NCBI GenBank assembly: GCA_030620115.1
Contig: JAUXFG010000080.1
Coordinates: forward strand, 1-17,332
From: Candidatus Fermentibacterota bacterium
GTDB taxonomy: Bacteria; JAFGKV01
Direction of reading: 5' to 3'
Length of the DNA stretch: 17,332 nt
The notes under the pieces are model-generated. The model did no database searches. It saw nothing but the letters and a program-made list of their open reading frames with translations, and was not told the DNA's origin. This document shows, in pieces, positions 1 to 16,564 of the stretch (position 1 is the first letter of the stretch; each line of letters begins with the position of its first letter). Made by a program: the position numbers and the translations under genes.

Positions 1-3000
1 GATCTTGGTCCGGGTAAGCTGCCCGATGTCGACCTCGACCTTGTGCCATTCATCTCCCTCCACTCGGAGCCGAATCTCATAGTAGTTCTGTTCGTTGGCG
101 CCCAACCTGATCCACGCAAGGGGCTCCACATCGAGCCCCGCGGTGTCGTTTATCTGAAATGATCGAATCCAGAATGCCAGGCCTTCATACCCGGAGTAGT
201 CCTGGTCTCGATAAAACGATTGGTACGCACTCCCCCAATGCCCGAAAGCCATACCTTCGAAGCCCAGGACGAGAGATTGCTCTTTTCGTTCATAGCCCGT
301 ACGTTCATCTTCCCCGGGATCAAAAGGCGGCTCGTACTCCGGATCCTCTTTGTTGTTGCGCACCTTCACACGAAACCGCTCCTCCTCACCCACATCATCC
401 AGCTCCGACTCAATGCCTTGAGAGAGCCATGTGCTCCCCACGATCTCTAAGCCTGCAAGCTGAATCAGCGCCTCATCTTGTGCATCAAGGTCGCTCACCC
501 AGAGCCTGCAGTATTCAATGGTGGACCAATCCGCGTTGCCCATTGACGAGACATGATCCCCTTCCAGCGGAAACCGAAAGAGCCTCCACCCATCAAGATA
601 CTCGCCTTCCACAAACTCGCTTTGGCCGACCAATGGAAGTGAAACCGAGAAATACTCCTCTTGCGTGTCCAGCTGCCCATTCCCGTCCAGATCCTCGGTA
701 TCTTCCAGCTTATTGCCCTCGGTACCATTGATCTTTCGGTAGTCCTGCGGATTATTATTATCGTAGACATAGTTGTCTCCCCCGGGGTCATCTCCTTCGC
801 CTGGTTCCTGTGAATCGAATAGGCCGTCCAAACCCGTGTCCTCGTCTTCCTGCACAAAAATACCATTCCTGGGATCACGATCCTCTTCATCCAGGAAATT
901 GTTCGGTTCCGTGGCATGGAAAACGCGATCTTCGCTCACCGCACCAAAATCCAAACGAAGCAGACCCTCATCGCCGCGCACCAGTACCTCGATGAATTCT
1001 CGCTCCGACAAATCCGTACCCCCGGCCTGGATCAATGTCTGAATGGAGATCCAGGTAGCGCGAGGATCCTGCTGCCTTGGATGGAATCGAAGATTCAGGA
1101 CCTCCATCACATCTTGCCGCTCCTTTGTATCAGTGAGAAGACTGTCCGGATAGATGTCGCCCTTCTTCATTTGAGCATCACTCTGGCCGAAATTGTACCA
1201 GTAGAAGCTCGTGTCCTGATGCGCCGCCTCCATCCCCTCAGGCAGGCTGCCATGCGTCCAACGCCTGCGCATCAGCGAAAGCGCGGTGGCGTTCCTCGTG
1301 CCTTCCATATCATCCAGGAGTGCCGACCCCCGCGTATTGGGATTCGGCATGCTATGGGCAATCTCTCCTTCAAACGTAATGGAAGACGGAGCATTGGGCG
1401 CAACAAAAGGGACGTGGTTGACCGCTTCGGTAAGCCACACAGGGCGAAACTCCAACATGCCGTCCATGCCGGCCACCATGGCGCGTCGTGGTTCTTCACC
1501 GAATCTCGGAAGCCGGGTGCTTTTTTGGCCGCCTTCCCCCTGATACATCCAGGTGGCCCCCAATTTGGTATTCCCCCCCAGGGGCAACTCGAACCGCGTA
1601 CCGAGGAGAGTCCGCTGGGAGGCGGCGAACAGCGGACGGACCTCATACGAGATGCGTATCTGGTCATCGGGGCCCCCGATAACACCTGGTCTGAACCGAA
1701 GCTCATAGAAGTCTACATCAAAGTCCTTGCCCTCAGTCATGGTCTTGCCGTTGACTTTGACGACCACCGAACCATCCATCATGAGAGGGCTCAGACGATA
1801 AGTCGATTGGAGAAGCTCGTAACTCGCCTCGAGATAGTAGAGGTTGTCTTCCGGTTTGAGTTTGCTGTATTTCTTCTGGTAGAGTGACGTATTGACCGTA
1901 TCGAGTACATCGGCTCTGTTGAAGGGCTCGGCATAGGGGAAAAACAGAATCCCCTTGGCGAAATCAATCATCGATCGATCCAAGTCTACCAGCGCGTTAT
2001 TGTCGTCATCAAGGCCCAACAGATGCAGGTAGGACTTCCCTCCGAACTCCTCCACATCATATCCTGAGGGGACCTTTCGTTTGATCTTCAGCCGAAAGCG
2101 ATCAGAGTCGATATCCCGTGATCCCAGATAGTACCCGTTGCGTAGCTCATATGCCCACGTCGACGACTCAGGGGTCATATTCGCCGGCTTGATGAGCTTG
2201 AGCACGCGAGTCGAATCATCCACCGCATGCCCCACTTGCCCCTGTGTGGTGGTATAGAGCACGGCGAGGACATGATTCTCCTGGAGTGACGTTTTGAGCT
2301 CCAGGATCCCCGTCTCCGAGGAGAAGTTGTAATGATTATTGTCGCCTGCCTCCAATCGGAGAAACGTACCTTCGTACTCCGGCTCGACGGAAGGATTCTC
2401 CGGGTCCAGATAACAGATCCCATGGAAGCTCGCCGCGATGTCGTCAGGATCATTATACTGATCGTCCTCATAGACCTCGACGTGCGACACCGTGACTCCG
2501 GGATCATAGTAGGCAGCGCTGCCTGGTTCCATGACCACGGAATAGTACTGGTTGTGCACGTATCCGGTATCCTTGATCTGGATGGTGTCCAGCTTGGCCT
2601 GTCCGGTGAAGCTCTTGGTCTGCTTCTTACTCTCTTCCTTTGAGGCAATGACCGTCACGCGCGCGGGGCCGATCTGCGCTCTGCCACGAATGCCGAACAA
2701 TCCTTGATGGCTGAAGCTGGACGAGATGAATCTCGCGCCACTCCCCAGGGAGAGGCTGGTGTTTCCCGCCTCGATCTCTTGGATTATCTCATCTTCGGTC
2801 CCTTCGTAACGTATCCGGATCTTGTTCTTCGCGTCATGTTGTTTGACGCTGTCGTGATCCACCAGAACACTGATCTTGTCACCCACATGCCCTTTGAGGT
2901 TTACCCTCAACTCTTGCTGCATCTGGAGCTGTGGAAACTTCGAGTTCCTCCGGTCAGGATCGTCACGCGCGTCAACCTCATAGGATGATTCTCCGCCAAG

Positions 3001-3495
3001 AGAGATCTTCTGACGTCCCGAAACCTTGAGCCCTGCTTTGCCCTTGAGGAAGCTGGGCAACGCCTTGGGCAGCCCGATCCCCGCGTATAATCCCTGTCTC
3101 CCATCATCCGACTTTCCCTTTGTGGGATTGAGTATCTCTTCCTTCCATTCCAAAAAAGTGGCCGTTTTCACGATCTCCTCGACAAAAGACGCCAACTGAT
3201 CATCACGAAGGTAGTAAAGAATGCCTTGGTCCACCTCAACGAGGAACGATTCTTCACAGCCGGCCGATTTCTTGAGGTCGGAGGCCTTGAAGGAAAGATG
3301 CGCGAGTGAGTCGGGCCCGACCCAGAGGAACGGCTCTGATGGGCTCGCCAACGCGCCGGGTCCACAGAGAGATCCAAGCAGTTTGCCGCGCACGCCGGTG
3401 GAGGGAATGACTTCCACCGCTGGTGCTGAGAACGGGAGCAAGAATCCGGCCAGCAGGATGATATGGGCGATATGTTGTTTTCTGGATGATCTCAT
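1..3495 (-). CDS. sprA: SprA-like T9SS outer-membrane translocon (partial, C-terminus beyond window)
   Basis: From the ATG at 3495 the minus strand reads 1165 codons without a stop and leaves the window at base 1. SprA is the giant beta-barrel translocon of the type IX secretion system, over 2000 residues in Bacteroidetes, so about half is seen. Residues 1-26 form a signal peptide (Arg/Lys start, hydrophobic IILLAGFLLPF, Ala-Pro-Ala cleavage). Family landmarks follow: NKIRIRYEGTEDEI with an EAGNTS stretch near 225-245, a SLFG-like turn (GLFGIRG) near 265, DDMEGTRN near 729, and EDLDGNGQLDTQEEYFS near 935, which matches the Asp/Asn-rich EDLN...EEY loop of SprA. The composition is beta-rich, with many Tyr/Asp/Asn residues. 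No Shine-Dalgarno is visible before the ATG; the signal peptide supports the start. It lies 118 bases downstream of the FHA gene on the same strand. Motifs are seen; the family name is from recognition; the T9SS role is family knowledge. Confidence 0.88.
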   Translation of the reverse strand, partial: MRSSRKQHIAHIILLAGFLLPFSAPAVEVIPSTGVRGKLLGSLCGPGALASPSEPFLWVGPDSLAHLSFKASDLKKSAGCEESFLVEVDQGILYYLRDDQLASFVEEIVKTATFLEWKEEILNPTKGKSDDGRQGLYAGIGLPKALPSFLKGKAGLKVSGRQKISLGGESSYEVDARDDPDRRNSKFPQLQMQQELRVNLKGHVGDKISVLVDHDSVKQHDAKNKIRIRYEGTEDEIIQEIEAGNTSLSLGSGARFISSSFSHQGLFGIRGRAQIGPARVTVIASKEESKKQTKSFTGQAKLDTIQIKDTGYVHNQYYSVVMEPGSAAYYDPGVTVSHVEVYEDDQYNDPDDIAASFHGICYLDPENPSVEPEYEGTFLRLEAGDNNHYNFSSETGILELKTSLQENHVLAVLYTTTQGQVGHAVDDSTRVLKLIKPANMTPESSTWAYELRNGYYLGSRDIDSDRFRLKIKRKVPSGYDVEEFGGKSYLHLLGLDDDNNALVDLDRSMIDFAKGILFFPYAEPFNRADVLDTVNTSLYQKKYSKLKPEDNLYYLEASYELLQSTYRLSPLMMDGSVVVKVNGKTMTEGKDFDVDFYELRFRPGVIGGPDDQIRISYEVRPLFAASQRTLLGTRFELPLGGNTKLGATWMYQGEGGQKSTRLPRFGEEPRRAMVAGMDGMLEFRPVWLTEAVNHVPFVAPNAPSSITFEGEIAHSMPNPNTRGSALLDDMEGTRNATALSLMRRRWTHGSLPEGMEAAHQDTSFYWYNFGQSDAQMKKGDIYPDSLLTDTKERQDVMEVLNLRFHPRQQDPRATWISIQTLIQAGGTDLSEREFIEVLVRGDEGLLRLDFGAVSEDRVFHATEPNNFLDEEDRDPRNGIFVQEDEDTGLDGLFDSQEPGEGDDPGGDNYVYDNNNPQDYRKINGTEGNKLEDTEDLDGNGQLDTQEEYFSVSLPLVGQSEFVEGEYLDGWRLFRFPLEGDHVSSMGNADWSTIEYCRLWVSDLDAQDEALIQLAGLEIVGSTWLSQGIESELDDVGEEERFRVKVRNNKEDPEYEPPFDPGEDERTGYERKEQSLVLGFEGMAFGHWGSAYQSFYRDQDYSGYEGLAFWIRSFQINDTAGLDVEPLAWIRLGANEQNYYEIRLRVEGDEWHKVEVDIGQLTRTKI

Positions 3496-3549
3496 ACCAA
3501 TCAAGTCTGAATCAACGAACCGATAGCCCGCCGCCGGTGAGGGAACTCC

Positions 3550-7795: not shown

Positions 7796-8137
7796 CTAAT
7801 CTTTCAAAAGGGCTTGTATTTCCTGATGGAGCCGCGGCAGGTTCGTCTCAAGAATACCCCACACCACTTCCTTGTCGATGTCTGCGTAGCCATGTATGAG
7901 GCGATTCCGGAATGCGATGATTCTCTTGGTATCGCTGATTCGAGAAGCGAGGGAGTCGTCTTTCATGAGCATTTGCCTCAGGGCTTCACCGATGATCTCA
8001 AACTGGCGCTCCACGGCGGACCTGAGCATGTTATCCGTGCTGAAGTCGGAGAAGGACTTTCCGGTGGTAAAGGCCTCCAACTCGCCACACGCCAGAAGGA
8101 TGTCGTAGAGGTACTTCCGGATCTCAAGCGGCAGCAT
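7796..8137 (-). CDS. hepT: HepT-like HEPN toxin (DUF86), pair 1
   Basis: 113 residues, all-helical HEPN fold. Near the C-terminus is FRNRLIHGY with R77, H82 and Y84. This is the RX4HXY motif of HepT ribonucleases; the Tyr is the residue AMPylated by the partner MntA in the characterised system. The frame is open further upstream (to 8263), but the extra residues lie inside mntA and do not fit the family. MLPLEIRKYLYDI is the usual HepT N-terminus, and the length is typical. It overlaps mntA by 14 bases (8124-8137), implying coupled translation. The RNase role is family knowledge; a decayed but still intact copy cannot be excluded. Confidence 0.88.
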   Translation of the reverse strand: MLPLEIRKYLYDILLACGELEAFTTGKSFSDFSTDNMLRSAVERQFEIIGEALRQMLMKDDSLASRISDTKRIIAFRNRLIHGYADIDKEVVWGILETNLPRLHQEIQALLKD

Positions 8138-8435
8138 ACACGGTGACCCTTTGCTGCTGAATTGCCTCCAAGAAATAGGGATTACGAATCGCCCGGGGTT
8201 CGACAAGGTCAATATCCCGCTCGAAGATCCGTTCAAGATCTTCCAATAAGCCAAAGAAGGCATCTGCGTGTGCAGCAGGCGTCAGCTCCTTGAACTCCAC
8301 GAGACAATCGACATCGCTTTTCTCGGAGTCAGAAGAATCGGTGGCCGCGGAACCGAAGAGTTCAAGATGCCGGACATGGTGCTTCACACAAATTTCTGCC
8401 AGCTTCCTGCTCTTTGATCGTATCAAGCTATTCAT
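8124..8435 (-). CDS. mntA: MntA-like nucleotidyltransferase antitoxin, pair 1
   Basis: 103 residues, minimal nucleotidyltransferase fold. It has LELFGS then DVD (G28-S29 ... D41-V42-D43) and a third acidic site in RDIDLVEP, followed by the usual FLEAIQQQRVTVYAA tail. In this family it transfers AMP to the HepT tyrosine and so neutralises the toxin. Between GS and DXD there are 11 residues, one more than the usual 10 seen in the other two pairs, which may disturb the active site. GGGAG lies 7 bases before the ATG. It is the first gene of the pair. Confidence 0.88.
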   Translation of the reverse strand: MNSLIRSKSRKLAEICVKHHVRHLELFGSAATDSSDSEKSDVDCLVEFKELTPAAHADAFFGLLEDLERIFERDIDLVEPRAIRNPYFLEAIQQQRVTVYAAA

Positions 8436-9015: not shown

Positions 9016-9369
9016 CTAGCGTTCAAGATCACGCGTCAGGTTGAGCAAGACTTGAAGCTTGCCGCGGAGAGCGCTGAGCTTGGTCGTGGCAACATCCCAG
9101 ACGATGGTGTAGTCCACTCCGAAGTAGTCGTGGATCAGTCTGTCTCGCATTCCTGCGATCTTCCGCCATTCGACTTCGGGTTGTTGCACTCGAAGATCCT
9201 CCGGCACCTTCTTCGCCGCCTCACCGATGATCTCAAGGCTTCGGACAAATGCTCTCTTCAGAGTAGCATCCTGGCTGAAGGACTGGAACTCCTGGCCTGG
9301 AAGTTGAGACAGAATGTAGTCGATCTCATCAAGCATATGGCGGATGTACTCACGCGGCGACAGAGACAC
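9016..9369 (-). CDS. hepT: HepT-like HEPN toxin (DUF86), pair 2
   Basis: 117 residues beginning with GTG at 9369 ([19 protein letters not shown], the usual N-terminus). MRDRLIHDY carries R75, H80 and Y82, the RX4HXY catalytic/AMPylation motif, followed by [10 protein letters not shown] as in typical DUF86 proteins. GGGAGGT, placed inside the upstream gene 5 bases before the GTG, fixes the start. It overlaps its nucleotidyltransferase by 20 bases. It shares only family-level similarity with HepT of pair 1, so the pairs look like independent acquisitions, not a recent duplication. Predicted cytoplasmic RNase toxin, neutralised by the partner. Confidence 0.9.
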
Positions 9370-9667
9370 GCTCCACCTCCCGAAGGATGTGAGGCCCGAT
9401 GTGGGGGCTGAGGGCCTCGGGCGTCACCACTTCCACCTTCCGTCCCAGCAAATCTTCAAGAAAGAAGGACAGATCCATGAAGTTGTCGAAGGAGTGCTGA
9501 TCCGGCGCGAACTCCACGAGGATATCAACGTCGCTCGTCGGGGTTTGCCGTCCCGTGACAAACGAGCCGAACAAGCCGATGTTAGTCACCCCAAGCGAAA
9601 CCAATTTCTCGCTCGCGGCCAGGAGGCGTTGTACAGCCTCTTCCTTAGTTTTTACCCGTGTGATCAT
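9350..9667 (-). CDS. mntA: MntA-like nucleotidyltransferase antitoxin, pair 2
   Basis: 105 residues. IGLFGS (30-35), ten residues, then DVD (46-48) give the canonical GSX10DXD nucleotidyltransferase motif. A third acidic position lies in RKVEVVTP, and the tail [12 protein letters not shown] is typical of MntA. The ATG at 9667 has GGAG 8 bases upstream. It leads the pair and overlaps hepT by 20 bases. Predicted to AMPylate the HepT tyrosine (family knowledge). The pair is bracketed by RAYT-derived repeats A and B. Confidence 0.9.
9375..9381 (-). promoter_or_regulatory. Strong internal Shine-Dalgarno for hepT pair 2
   Basis: GGGAGGT on the minus strand inside the mntA coding region, 5 bases before the GTG at 9369. 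It decides the non-ATG start and allows the toxin to be translated independently of or coupled to the antitoxin. Confidence 0.65.
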
Positions 9668-10490: not shown

Positions 10491-12236
10491 ATGGAGAAAC
10501 TGATAGTGAATGAGAAACGGATACCCCTGAAAGCCTTCTTTGAGGAACTGGAAGGACGATTGGATACTTGCTCGGCGGACGATCTGCGCTCAATCCTTCG
10601 CAACATGGCGAGGGCTGTGCCGCCTGATGGACGTCGGCGTTTTCTCGCGCAGCTTGAACCCGGCGGCGAACCGGAGAAGGCGATCGCCGAAGCCTTGCGG
10701 CAGGATGATCTGCTTTCGGACATCGATGATCTGGCTGCGGAGATCCAAAATAGGATGGAAAGCGCCGAGGAATGGGAAGAGGAGTATGGGTGCCACGACC
10801 GGTGGAACGACGAGGACAGTCTCGGGCCGTATGAAGAGTTCTTGGAGCCCATTGCGGCATTGTTCGACCGGACCGCAGGCGTCTTCGACTCCGGCAACCT
10901 GGAACTGTCGGTCAAGGCGTACCGCAGGCTCCTGCAATTGCTTGGAAAGCAAGACGACTACGGCCGGGGGGTCGGTGCGGAGGACCTCGAAGCAGAGGAA
11001 CTCGCGGAAGCGTGCGCGCGCTATCTCCGAGCCGCCTATGAAACGACACCCATTGCCAGACGTCCTGGCGTCATATTCGAGGAAATGGCAAGCATCCCGA
11101 GACTGACGTCCAATGAGAACCAGAAGCTGACAGATCTGATCGAGATCACGGATCGCTCGTTGCCCGACCGCCATCGGTTCCTGCAGGACTGGATCAAGTT
11201 CCTTCGCAAAAAGGAATCATCGACGGCGGACCGGTGGCTGCGGGAAGCGGTTCGGCTCTCCGGTGGGACCGAGGCGATGGAGACGCTTGCGCGGGAAGAG
11301 GGAAGGAAACATCCTTTGGCCTACGTTGATTGGCTGGCATCCATGAACGAAGAAGGTCGCAGCCGGGATGTTGTGGCCGGAGCGCAGGAGGCCTTGAGCG
11401 TGCTTTCCGACGGTCTGCCTGTCCGCGCGGCCATAGCCGACGAGCTTTCTGCGGCGGCTGAGCGGCTCAAGGATCATTCTCTGCTTCGCGAGGCACGTTG
11501 GCAGGCATTTTTTGCCAAGCCCGGGTTGCGACGGCTCGTTGACCTCGCCGCTACCATTGCCTCGGATGCCGAGCGGAAAGAGTACATGCTTCGGGCGGCA
11601 GGGCACTTGGAGAAGTGCTTAAAAAGCCAGGCGAGGCGATCGGTTTCCTTCGGTCGGGAATTCGACACCGACCCGCGGGAACAGCCTGCGTGGACTTCCG
11701 AATCGGTTCTCGCGCACGCGTGGCTTCTTGCCGGCGAATGGGACCAGGCGTGGACATTGGCGAAGAAGGAGCCAGTTCTGGGCTGGAGCAATCCAGACAC
11801 CGTGCAAAGCCTGGTTGTTCCGGCCGTTTTGCTTGCATCGAGTGGTCGCGAACCGAACATCCCAGCCAATGTGAAGGACCTGTGGGAATCAGCTTTGGAG
11901 AGGAGCGCGGGCTGGATGACCGAGGTCAAAGGCCTGGAACTGAACGCGCTCTACGAGCAAGCATTCGCTGACACGGGACTATCCAATGCACAGATGGAGA
12001 AGCTACTCAAATGGTGCCGCTCCGTTGCCGAGAAGCACGCCGAGGCCATTGTCAGGGGCAAGCATCGCAGAAGCTACGGCAAGGCGGCCCTGCTTGCCGC
12101 CGCCGTCGCCGAGACGCTCAACCGCCGTGAGCAGGAGGCCGAGGCAACGAAATTGATTGAGAAACTCCGAAATCAGTTCCCCCGCCACCGCGCCTTTCAG
12201 GACGAACTGCGGGCAGCAGAGTCGCGGATGAGGTGA
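10491..12236 (+). CDS. Large alpha-helical repeat (TPR/solenoid-like) protein of unknown function
   Basis: 581 residues from the ATG at 10491. No catalytic motif, signal peptide or membrane segment is visible. It is built of amphipathic helix pairs with TPR-like spacing, e.g. NLELSVKAYRRLLQLL, SVLAHAWLLAGEWDQAWTLA and KAALLAAAVAETLNRREQEA. The centre (ADRWLREAVRLSGG ... HPLAYVDWL ... VVAGAQEALSVLSDG) recalls the helical repeats that follow SWIM zinc fingers in some bacterial proteins, but no CxC...CxH finger is present. An acidic stretch (EEWEEEYGCHDRWNDEDS) lies near residue 100. The start is uncertain; 10455 or TTG at 10347 are alternatives. It overlaps the radical SAM gene by 4 bases, implying coupled translation and probably a complex. 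A scaffold or substrate-recognition role is inference. Confidence 0.8.
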   Translation: MEKLIVNEKRIPLKAFFEELEGRLDTCSADDLRSILRNMARAVPPDGRRRFLAQLEPGGEPEKAIAEALRQDDLLSDIDDLAAEIQNRMESAEEWEEEYGCHDRWNDEDSLGPYEEFLEPIAALFDRTAGVFDSGNLELSVKAYRRLLQLLGKQDDYGRGVGAEDLEAEELAEACARYLRAAYETTPIARRPGVIFEEMASIPRLTSNENQKLTDLIEITDRSLPDRHRFLQDWIKFLRKKESSTADRWLREAVRLSGGTEAMETLAREEGRKHPLAYVDWLASMNEEGRSRDVVAGAQEALSVLSDGLPVRAAIADELSAAAERLKDHSLLREARWQAFFAKPGLRRLVDLAATIASDAERKEYMLRAAGHLEKCLKSQARRSVSFGREFDTDPREQPAWTSESVLAHAWLLAGEWDQAWTLAKKEPVLGWSNPDTVQSLVVPAVLLASSGREPNIPANVKDLWESALERSAGWMTEVKGLELNALYEQAFADTGLSNAQMEKLLKWCRSVAEKHAEAIVRGKHRRSYGKAALLAAAVAETLNRREQEAEATKLIEKLRNQFPRHRAFQDELRAAESRMR

Positions 12237-14344
12237 GGGTGTACCTGCTGGACCTCCATTATGACAATGCCAAAGCCAATGGGCACGGCGGCTTCTCGTT
12301 CCGTACGCGGCAAGGCATTCCGAAATGGACGGTCTTGGGTTCCCGCCGGACAGACAGGGAACTGATTCGGCTAATGGCCCTTGCCTGCGGCGGTGTACCT
12401 TTCGTATCGCGGCTCTCCGTTGAGGCACTGACATTGCACGCGAACCAAGCGCGCCCGCTGGACCTCGAATTCGTGATGGCCAGGCACGTGCCGCACGACG
12501 GCGTGTCGAGACTTGCACCGTTTGCAGGAAGCGGGTTGCGCATCGGACCGCAGGCGATCGTCGCCCAACTCAGCCGCGGGGAGTGGATACGCCTCCCCTC
12601 AGATCTCCCGGTCCGTCAGCCCACTCTCGCGAACGGCAACGGCGCTTACTTCCTGCTTGCCTATGGTCCCAGGTTGACCCCAAAGAAACGAGAGGATTTC
12701 GATTTCGAGGATCCCTTTCACCGCGTGTCGCGGTTCCACGCGCTGTTTGATGCAGATGCCGGCGTAACAGACCCGGCAGCCTTTCTCGCTCGACTCCATT
12801 ATAAGGCGGTGCTCAAGTCGCGTTTCCCGGCCAAACAGACGATGCGCAGGATGACGGGACTTCTCGAGCAGCACATCGGCATCGATACTTCGGGGTGGTG
12901 GGAGAAGGCGTGTCGGTTCGAGGATCAATGGCATCGGCTCCCGGCATGGCAGCGTCGGATTGCACTGCCGATCGTCGATGCCGTTCGCCACGCCATAGAC
13001 GCTTCGCCGCGTATGGGCCATCCCCTGACGACGCCGGGTGTCGTGATCTTGGATAGACCGGACCTGTTCTGTCCCGACCATATCTTCGCCGCATATGTTC
13101 GACTCTTCGACGCGCTGCTGCCGGCGATGCAGTTCGTCGTAACGCTTTCGCCTCGCAGTGGCCGGCGCTTCCCATGGAGCCTGCGACGCAAACATCTGCC
13201 TCTTCCCGGGATGGCCTTCCCCGAGAAAGAGAAACAACGGAAGACTTCACCGCCTCCCGGCAGCGTACTGCTCATCGACGTGGACGGACGGCTCCCGAAC
13301 GTGGCGTTGATGAAGCTGAGCCGCCATTTCAAGCTGCAGGGACGCCGCGTGCATCTGGCCCGACGCGAGCTATTCGGCAGCAGTGCCCATGAGGTATGGG
13401 CAAGCTGCGTGTTCCACAGGCCCGCTTCGCTGAGACGCGTCAGCCGCCTGCGCGCTCATTACGGTAGCTCTCTGCAGGTCGCCGGGTCAGGTATCGATCT
13501 AAAGCGACGACTTCCATCGGAAGTGGAGAATCTGCAGGCCGACTACAGTCTCTACCCGGAACTGGGCGACCGAACAATCGGTTTTCTGACCAGGGGTTGT
13601 CCGGGGTCATGTCTGTTCTGCGTCGTGCCTGTCAAGGAAGGCAAGCCTCGACAAGTCGCTGATCTCGACACATTGCTACAGGGGCGGAAAAAGCTGATTC
13701 TTTTGGACGACAACATCCTGGCGCACTCAAAGGCCACGGAGTTCCTGGAGGACATGGTCAGGCGCGACGTCGAGGTTAACTTCAATCAGACGCTGGACAT
13801 CCACCTCCTCGACGACGAAAAGGCGGCCCTCCTGCGTCGCATTCGCTGCAGAGATGTCGGCTTCAAGCGCAGCAACTACCACTTCAGTCTGAACGATACG
13901 CGGCGTCTCGATGGGGTTCGACGCCGCTACGCTCGGCTCGGATTCCGCGCTCGGGACAACGTCGAGTTCATCTGCATGTACGGCTACAACACCACACTGG
14001 CGCAGGATGTGGAACGTTTCCGATTTCTGCGATCCCTGCCCGGCGCCTACGTGTTCGTGCAACGTTATCAGCCATTTCCGGGAGCGCCCAGACCGAAGCT
14101 GGATAACTTCTTCGATGAGAATGTGGACGATCTCCTGGACGAGCTGGTCCGCATCGTGTTCACGCAGAACATGAAGAGCATGGAGGTATACTACCGGTGG
14201 GTGAGCAAGGAGTACGTCTTGGCATTCGGGAAGCTGCACAGGGGCCTCGTCGATACCATCTTCAGGTACAACAACCGGCACTCAAAAGGCCGCTACCTCG
14301 CGACCCTGGCGAACACCCGACGAATTGCTCAAACGCATATTTGA
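12233..14344 (+). CDS. Pseudo-AAA/RecF-like ATPase domain fused to a radical SAM domain
   Basis: 703 residues, GTG start at 12233 in a GTGA overlap. The C-terminal half is a radical SAM enzyme: C456-x3-C460-x2-C463 within FLTRGCPGSCLFCVVPVKEG, preceded by an accessory domain with LLIDVDGRLPNVALMKLSRH (347-364), GSGIDLKRRLP and ADYSLYP. This is the archaeal/phage-type radical SAM family with that N-terminal domain. Residues 1-310 follow the plan of RecF/SMC-like AAA proteins: PKWTVL (30-35), FLLAYGP (140-146), RFHALFD (167-173), LPAWQRR where a signature is expected (236-242), GVVILDRPDL (269-278) and QFVVTLSP (300-307). Where a Walker A is expected after KWTVL the sequence is GSRRTDRELIR, with no GxxGxGK, and the Walker B Glu is replaced by Arg. 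The ATPase part is thus probably dead. Substrate unknown. The domain comparison is from memory. Confidence 0.85.
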   Translation: MRVYLLDLHYDNAKANGHGGFSFRTRQGIPKWTVLGSRRTDRELIRLMALACGGVPFVSRLSVEALTLHANQARPLDLEFVMARHVPHDGVSRLAPFAGSGLRIGPQAIVAQLSRGEWIRLPSDLPVRQPTLANGNGAYFLLAYGPRLTPKKREDFDFEDPFHRVSRFHALFDADAGVTDPAAFLARLHYKAVLKSRFPAKQTMRRMTGLLEQHIGIDTSGWWEKACRFEDQWHRLPAWQRRIALPIVDAVRHAIDASPRMGHPLTTPGVVILDRPDLFCPDHIFAAYVRLFDALLPAMQFVVTLSPRSGRRFPWSLRRKHLPLPGMAFPEKEKQRKTSPPPGSVLLIDVDGRLPNVALMKLSRHFKLQGRRVHLARRELFGSSAHEVWASCVFHRPASLRRVSRLRAHYGSSLQVAGSGIDLKRRLPSEVENLQADYSLYPELGDRTIGFLTRGCPGSCLFCVVPVKEGKPRQVADLDTLLQGRKKLILLDDNILAHSKATEFLEDMVRRDVEVNFNQTLDIHLLDDEKAALLRRIRCRDVGFKRSNYHFSLNDTRRLDGVRRRYARLGFRARDNVEFICMYGYNTTLAQDVERFRFLRSLPGAYVFVQRYQPFPGAPRPKLDNFFDENVDDLLDELVRIVFTQNMKSMEVYYRWVSKEYVLAFGKLHRGLVDTIFRYNNRHSKGRYLATLANTRRIAQTHI

Positions 14345-15836: not shown

Positions 15837-16220
15837 CTACTTGTTCACCAGCCTATTCATCTCTTCCAGAAATCCCCGGCTTTTCTCAACGATTTCCTTG
15901 ACCTGCTCGGATTCGAATTCCACCAGCGGACGATAATCCGCTTTCTGTCGATTGTCGAACAGCCAGTCAAAGTGCTTTCCCCAACAGACCTCGATCTTCT
16001 TCTCGTGAATGTAATCCCTATGAAGAGCCGAACGGACCTCCTTGTGTTTCCTGAACGCTTTCCCGTCTCTCATGAGGACCGCGGAAAAGGCATGAAAGCA
16101 AGCAAAGTAGGCATCTCTCACCGTGTTTGAGAGCCTTCCAGCGGAGAGATTATCTGCTGCGGATGCGATATCCTGCCAGGCCTTTTCAAGCCAATAGCCG
16201 ACGAGTATTTCTCGACTCAT
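15837..16220 (-). CDS. HEPN-domain protein (UPF0332-like), pair 3
   Basis: 127 residues from the ATG at 16220 (MSREILVGYWLEKAWQDI). The frame is open to 16289, but that part lies within the upstream gene. It has the features of the second HEPN lineage: a helix with RDAYFACFHAFSAVLM (35-50), a KHKEVRSALHRDYIH stretch, and NRQKADY (90-96) corresponding to the R-x-x-ADY motif near the C-terminus. The RX4HXY motif of pairs 1 and 2 is absent, so an identical RNase mechanism should not be assumed. A GAGGGAG lies about 11 bases before the ATG. It overlaps the nucleotidyltransferase by 4 bases (ATGA). Confidence 0.85.
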   Translation of the reverse strand: MSREILVGYWLEKAWQDIASAADNLSAGRLSNTVRDAYFACFHAFSAVLMRDGKAFRKHKEVRSALHRDYIHEKKIEVCWGKHFDWLFDNRQKADYRPLVEFESEQVKEIVEKSRGFLEEMNRLVNK

Positions 16221-16564
16221 GGAACGAGAACTCCCTCTCGCAGGATTTCCCGACATATGGGGAATTCGCTGAATAATCCTCCATCCCATTCATCCCCTGA
16301 CACGAACAATGGACTGAAGATAGCGTCATGCTTCATTCCAATGTCGAACAATTGTTCCACGATGTCCTTCTCTTCTTTCCAGTGCAGCGTCCGAGAGGTG
16401 ACTATGAGGAGATCGATGTCCGAATGTTGGTCTCCATCTCCGCGTGCCTTTGAGCCAAAAAGCACAACGCTTCCTACGGGGTGAAGCCTTCTCAACATCC
16501 TTGCGGCTTCCTCAATGGCTTCCCGCTCCCCTTTTTCGAGCGAGGGTTTCTCCCATGTTCTCAC
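16217..16564 (-). CDS. MNT-family nucleotidyltransferase, pair 3
   Basis: 115 residues, GTG start at 16564 preceded at 8 bases by GAGGAG. VVLFGSKARGDGDQHSDIDLL contains G37-S38, ten residues, then D49-I50-D51, the GSX10DXD catalytic motif. It is somewhat longer than the MntA proteins of pairs 1 and 2, with a C-terminal DEWDGGLFSEFPICREILREG tail typical of nucleotidyltransferases paired with UPF0332-like HEPN proteins. Coupled to its HEPN partner by ATGA. The pair lies between RAYT-derived repeats C and D. Predicted antitoxin or modifier; substrate not known for this lineage. Confidence 0.87.
   Translation of the reverse strand: MRTWEKPSLEKGEREAIEEAARMLRRLHPVGSVVLFGSKARGDGDQHSDIDLLIVTSRTLHWKEEKDIVEQLFDIGMKHDAIFSPLFVSGDEWDGGLFSEFPICREILREGVLVP

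Follow-up and report, generated by a model that had tools for sequence, protein, structure and literature searches.

Fusion of an ATP-binding cassette head lacking catalytic residues to a phage-type radical SAM enzyme in a widespread bacterial family

We describe a fused gene on contig JAUXFG010000080.1 of Candidatus Fermentibacterota bacterium (GenBank GCA_030620115.1); the window analysed is this whole 17,332-nucleotide contig, part of a 4.1-Mb genome bin. The gene joins a PtuA/retron-Ec78-type (RecF-type) ATP-binding cassette (ABC) ATPase head to a complete radical S-adenosylmethionine (SAM) enzyme, and its product appears from sequence to have two domains and a single functional active site, that of the radical SAM half. 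The gene is a member of a widespread family, not a decayed one-off, and is often accompanied by a gene whose product is similar to a DNA-modifying enzyme. Together, these features suggest a system for chemical modification, with DNA or RNA as its probable target. With a probability of roughly 0.4, we read the protein as a nucleic-acid-modifying radical SAM enzyme whose nucleotide-independent pseudo-ABC head would serve as a clamp or dock, working with a Mom/DruA-like partner.

Scanning 84,980 species genomes recovered 31 essentially full-length relatives, 44-59% identical to the window protein over its whole length. Their hosts include Deltaproteobacteria/Desulfobacterota, Chromatiaceae, Spirochaetales, Elusimicrobia and Verrucomicrobia metagenome-assembled genomes, and the isolate NaphS2. 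Most loci are metagenome bins on short contigs (one copy, L008, is cut off by the end of its contig), and most hosts carry a single copy. Distribution is patchy, since no full-length copy was found in the 97 other genomes searched among kin of the window's genome. The only internal stop in the family is an in-frame TAG near the start of L029:4992-7100, which is likely a broken copy or one that starts further downstream. Single-sequence searches of Pfam and NCBIfam gave weak radical SAM matches only, and Rfam found RNA families in none of 14 sources. In the window, the open reading frame (ORF) runs over 703 codons from a GTG; nearly all homologues in the family alignment (24 members) begin at the equivalent of its residue 3 (MYLL...), so translation probably starts at the GTG at 12239, giving 701 amino acids.

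The N-terminal half is recognizable as a PtuA-type head by profile and by fold. A family profile searched against the PDB matched PtuA and the ATPase chains of retrons Ec78/Ec83 (best E 9.5e-8), the other matches at E<0.01 being radical SAM enzymes for the C-half only. PADLOC PtuA models hit as many as 18 of the 24 aligned members (best E 2.5e-12), and hhalign to an intact PtuA-like protein (P0011 of locus L239) gives E 4.3e-7 over residues 29-306, a value for a single comparison, as are all hhalign E-values here. We predicted the structure of the fused protein with AlphaFold (mean predicted local distance difference test score (pLDDT) 84; predicted template-modelling score 0.58). Residues 1-321 of the model superpose on PtuA (9vhe_C) with Z 20.7, followed by AriA of PARIS (Z 14.5) and SMC/Rad50 heads (~13-14). 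The landmark order that a sequence-only reading of this DNA had likened to RecF/SMC ATPases holds up: KWTVL at 31-35, YGP at 144-146, RFHALFD at 167-173, GVVILDRPDL at 269-278 and QFVVTLSP at 300-307. Compared with PtuA of Septu (8ee4, 8eea) and of retrons Ec78/Ec83 (9vhe, 9nnb, 9e90), the fold is alike (Z ~19-21) and the KWT...P-loop place, YGP, RFxxLFD, Walker B and TTHS regions follow a common order. Unlike PtuA, no family member has the P-loop Lys/Ser, signature Gly, catalytic Glu or switch His, and the head is fused to a radical SAM enzyme with no PtuB HNH partner.

We next tallied ATPase motifs in the window protein and 30 homologues against four intact ATPases. The family P-loop is two residues shorter, and its Lys-Ser/Thr pair occurs in 0 of the 31 sequences; G-x4-GK[ST] is absent from anywhere in the N-half of all 24 aligned members. 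In the window protein, GSRRTDRELIR (residues 36-46) occupies the P-loop place, as the sequence-only reading had it. The signature LS[DA]G has mostly become LxPW (Trp in 24/31, Gly in none). Walker B keeps its Asp in 22/31, and the Glu place holds Arg in 24/31 and Glu in none; Arg275 of the window copy had been spotted correctly. The switch His is missing throughout (31/31). Because every tallied sequence lacks the P-loop pair, signature Gly, Walker B Glu and switch His, their loss is ancestral to the family. Both halves are under purifying constraint: in eight close pairs, ratios of non-synonymous to synonymous substitution rates (dN/dS) lie between 0.21 and 0.38 in the N-half and between 0.12 and 0.27 in the C-half. 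Constraint on the N-half excludes the alternative of a decayed copy, as does the absence of a normal Walker A from all 31 sequences. The earlier proposal was that the ATPase fold had taken on a binding or regulatory role for the radical SAM enzyme. Selection on the N-half supports a retained function; the role itself we infer.

Residues ~342-700 form a complete phage/plasmid-type radical SAM enzyme of the phrog_9298 family (a phage 'radical SAM domain protein'), with a MiaB/cobalamin-radical-SAM-like fold. All 24 aligned members match phrog_9298 (best E 1e-58) and Pfam Radical_SAM (best E 1.7e-6), and both superfamily features are present, a barrel fold and CxxxCxxC, intact in the window protein at 456/460/463 as previously read. 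Cobalamin-radical-SAM models of NCBIfam match weakly. The predicted C-half is a Rossmann domain plus radical SAM barrel (MgmA Z 17.3, MiaB 15.9, TsrM 15.4, AprD4 15.3, OxsB 13.3). With the ~300-residue phrog_9298 proteins of phages and plasmids the likeness extends over the whole C-half, from the Rossmann start DVDxxxPNLALMK through RGCxxxCxFCxVPxKEG to a C-terminal W/F/Y element, but those proteins stand alone. This family match and fold show that the window protein joins a PtuA-type head to an entire radical SAM enzyme of phage type. A core of RGCxxxCxFCxVPxKEG, D351, N356, K361, GG417-418, D492, Q519 and R595 is common to the fused family and 78 viral stand-alone proteins, and further invariant residues (for example D493, N554, M582-Y583, Y606, Q610 and N680) are peculiar to the fused family.

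This architecture, in which the Rossmann domain precedes the barrel (Z 13-17), is shared with the MiaB/RimO methylthiotransferases and the cobalamin-dependent methylases MgmA, TsrM and OxsB, but the fused family lacks hallmarks of both. MiaB/RimO have three conserved cysteines for a second cluster in the Rossmann domain; the fused family has no such set (only C392 reaches 50% in residues 341-445), and we do not assign it to MiaB. It also lacks DxHxxG; the predicted fold nevertheless fits a cobalamin-dependent radical SAM methylase, known members of which can lack that motif. We likewise do not place the family with viperin, which is not among the fold matches listed, an absence that excludes nothing.

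At least 478 viral contigs carry phrog_9298 radical SAM genes (L115-L194 and L111-L114 are examples), frequently immediately upstream of terminase or close to C5-cytosine methyltransferase genes, and genes of DNA metabolism surround these phage relatives. A C5-cytosine methyltransferase was found at 25 of 80 viral stand-alone loci, against 12 of 80 control loci carrying RusA (p 0.012). We found no fused form among the best 80 of the 478 viral contigs. Small proteins encoded upstream of three stand-alone genes looked mutually unrelated on reading.

Clustering of flanking ORFs revealed a sole recurrent neighbour, a helix-turn-helix (HTH)-DruA/DUF4338 gene directly downstream of the fused gene and never upstream. 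It is intact in nine loci, and remnants lie at L019, L021, L032 and probably L012; downstream sequence of at least 1.3 kb is available for 27 loci, window included. Intact and lost states are mixed on the family tree, as repeated loss would produce. The partner matches Pfam DruA (1e-34), and its model (pLDDT 74) has a predicted GNAT-like C-terminal domain whose best fold match is phage Mu Mom (8bv8, Z 12.4 over 167 residues); other GNATs reach Z 11.4, about 1 below Mom. The PHROG family 'Mom-like DNA modification protein' matches all nine partners weakly (E 0.003-1) and is the one matched by most of them, and hhalign to a Mom alignment gives E 5.1e-5 (probability 67%). In scans of two partners, the Pfam Mom cut-off was not reached and only DruA was found at E 0.01, so we call the partner Mom-like and not Mom. 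It shares with DruA (PF14236/DUF4338) and Mu Mom (PF25680) an H-Y pair and a G-x-x-Y-x-A-x-N/W-x-x-x-G stretch; unlike them, it has an N-terminal helical HTH-like region. DUF4338 has been termed a GNAT domain (PMC10853773).

On the evidence of fold and of weak sequence similarity, DruA/DUF4338 proteins more widely (L024:4234-5460, L028:3908-5140 and related genes) appear to form a GNAT family resembling Mom. Many genomes carry several DUF4338 genes, and matches in NaphS2 are numerous. In open-licence papers we found nothing relevant on DruA together with Mom.

Close relatives of the fused gene share only the gene and tens of bases around it; with or without its partner, it thus spreads horizontally as a small unit. 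Identity among copies L003, L004 and L005 is 90-93% over a stretch around the ORF that begins at ~-30 and ends between +6 and +35, and their sequences are unrelated beyond it; similarity of L009 and L033 is confined in the same way, and two copies in one Desulfosarcina bin (L012/L014) likewise have unrelated flanks. Four related genomes without the gene are collinear with one another at the L003 locus (94-97%), and L003 departs from them sharply ~127 bases after its stop. The gene downstream of the L003 copy was considered as an insertion sequence and set aside, its start reading as an ordinary chromosomal gene; what the collinear relatives show is the sharp junction. A ~275 bp repeat with the conserved end ...AATTTCAATAAGTTGTAGAATT[TA]CCGAGACGTT adjoins the fused gene at L009:7669-7946 and L004:3049-3155. 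We rejected it as an element end, as it is scattered through many desulfobacterial genomes.

How might a dead head serve a living enzyme? ABC heads of the PtuA/RecF class either act on DNA or provide oligomeric scaffolds. We infer that the head has become a nucleotide-independent module for dimerization and substrate gripping that would deliver nucleic acid, most likely DNA, to the radical SAM centre. That centre would then make a carbon-centred modification of a base, and the HTH partner, with its Mom/DruA-like GNAT domain, may recognize the DNA and add or finish the modification. A nucleic-acid substrate is suggested because ABC heads of this kind are linked to DNA, the partner is Mom-like and the radical SAM family occurs in a phage setting. 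Several observations weigh against this account. No phrog_9298 member has a known substrate, and the nearest radical SAM folds include protein modifiers (MgmA, RimO) besides the tRNA modifier MiaB. When near-duplicates are removed, the methyltransferase association of the phage enzymes falls to 15/51 versus 11/59 (p 0.14, not significant), and we treat it, after the RusA control, as a weak lead. The Mom match depends on a model with a pLDDT of 74 and on sequence scores that are weak; in place of the SFAD motif of Mom, the partner reads TFVQ or TFVE. Finally, the window copy has no DruA-like neighbour within 2,988 bases downstream, so the partner is either dispensable or supplied from another place; DUF4338 genes are present elsewhere in the genome.

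The best-surviving rival, which we nonetheless consider unlikely, is anti-phage defence: the pseudo-PtuA head would sense infection or an inhibitor, the radical SAM effector would make a toxic or chain-terminating product or damage nucleic acid, and the DruA-like protein would be a second subunit. Such a role would suit the head's place in the Septu/retron effector clade, the partner's membership of Pfam DruA, a family that takes its name from the Druantia defence system, and the three HEPN/nucleotidyltransferase pairs that flank the window gene. However, canonical ATP-driven sensing is impossible with this head, phages themselves carry the radical SAM family, and neighbours at other loci, read by eye, are mostly mutually unrelated and look like ordinary chromosomal genes, not defence genes. 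The family has the ATPase fold of Septu PtuA, but its functional residues (P-loop Lys-Ser/Thr pair, signature Gly, Walker B Glu, switch His) occur in 0/31 sequences. In the flanks examined, many on short contigs, no neighbour family besides HTH-DruA recurs in more than four loci, and no adjacent PtuB HNH nuclease or retron reverse transcriptase recurs. We do not assign the family to Septu. Nor do we assign it to Druantia: no DruB-E genes, and no DruE helicase with DruA-D genes, recur near the partner, and the window lacks even HTH-DruA.

Slightly less likely is a protein- or peptide-modifying enzyme, as MgmA or RimO, with the pseudo-ABC head docking a protein substrate. The best fold match of the C-half, MgmA, methylates glutamine in proteins, and the weak cobalamin-radical-SAM matches point the same way, but no conserved small peptide gene adjoins the fused gene, the phage relatives lie amid DNA metabolism genes and the partner resembles a DNA modifier. 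We regard as improbable a mobile-element component that, with the HTH-DruA protein, aids movement of the unit or choice of site, the radical SAM half marking or preparing target DNA. The near-identical copies with unrelated flanks, the two copies in one genome, the sharp L003 junction and the multi-copy DUF4338 genes would fit. Against it, no terminal inverted repeats were found at the nine units with intact DruA, copies are usually single per genome, many are intact yet lack DruA, and no nuclease or recombinase fold was found in either protein. A decayed or chimeric functionless gene would explain the lost ATPase motifs but has almost no chance of being correct given 31 relatives with identical architecture and losses, dN/dS of 0.12-0.38 and a single internal stop.

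Features of the fused gene and its upstream neighbour are collected in Table 1. That neighbour, P0002, stops two bases before the probable start of the fused gene; its weak relatives occur only in a few related genomes, and we rejected it as a partner because no relative lies beside other family members. The fused gene is flanked on either side by pairs of HEPN (HepT-like or HEPN) and nucleotidyltransferase genes, at 7796-8435, 9016-9667 and 15837-16564 (minus strand); these are likely toxin-antitoxin modules. A large protein encoded at 1-3504 (minus strand) is repetitive, looks secreted and to the eye resembles SprA; it has no Pfam match and is cut by the contig end.

Table 1. Features of the fused gene and its neighbour, with residues numbered from 12233.
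Feature	Position	Strand	Basis
Pseudo-ATPase/radical SAM fusion gene	12239..14344 (ORF of the sequence-only reading from 12233)	+	open frame; start by homology
PtuA-type ABC/AAA ATPase head without catalytic residues, residues 1-321	12233..13195	+	profile, fold, motif tally, hhalign
Degenerate P-loop KWTVLGSRRTDRELIR, residues 31-46	12323..12370	+	aligned to KWVTLLGENGVGKSTILQ of L239; 2 residues shorter than intact relatives
Walker B GVVILDRPDL, residues 269-278	13037..13066	+	Asp274 kept; Arg275 in catalytic Glu place
Rossmann domain and radical SAM barrel, phrog_9298, residues 341-703	13253..14341	+	24/24 members match; fold; viral alignment
C456xxxC460xxC463 [4Fe-4S]/SAM motif, then VVPVKEG	13598..13621	+	invariant in all members; common to viral stand-alone radical SAM proteins
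P0002, helical-repeat-like, no Pfam family	10491..12236	+	not a recurrent partner

Each domain is known, and dead members of P-loop families have been known before. As far as the open-licence literature shows, what is new is a uniformly dead PtuA head fused to a phage radical SAM enzyme and its pairing with a DruA-like protein. We found nothing relevant there on PtuA with radical SAM or on inactive PtuA, in keeping with the sequence-only reading, which knew of no described system of this layout. Because both occur together in a compact two-gene unit, the fusion family offers a handle on the role of the very common phage phrog_9298 proteins and on that of DruA (DUF4338). A more specific and somewhat doubtful possibility is that the unit is a mobile hypermodification module in which the dead PtuA-type head is the DNA clamp of a radical SAM base-modifying enzyme whose product is finished by the Mom/DruA-like GNAT. 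If so, the DruA family would be a Mom-like family of DNA-modifying enzymes.

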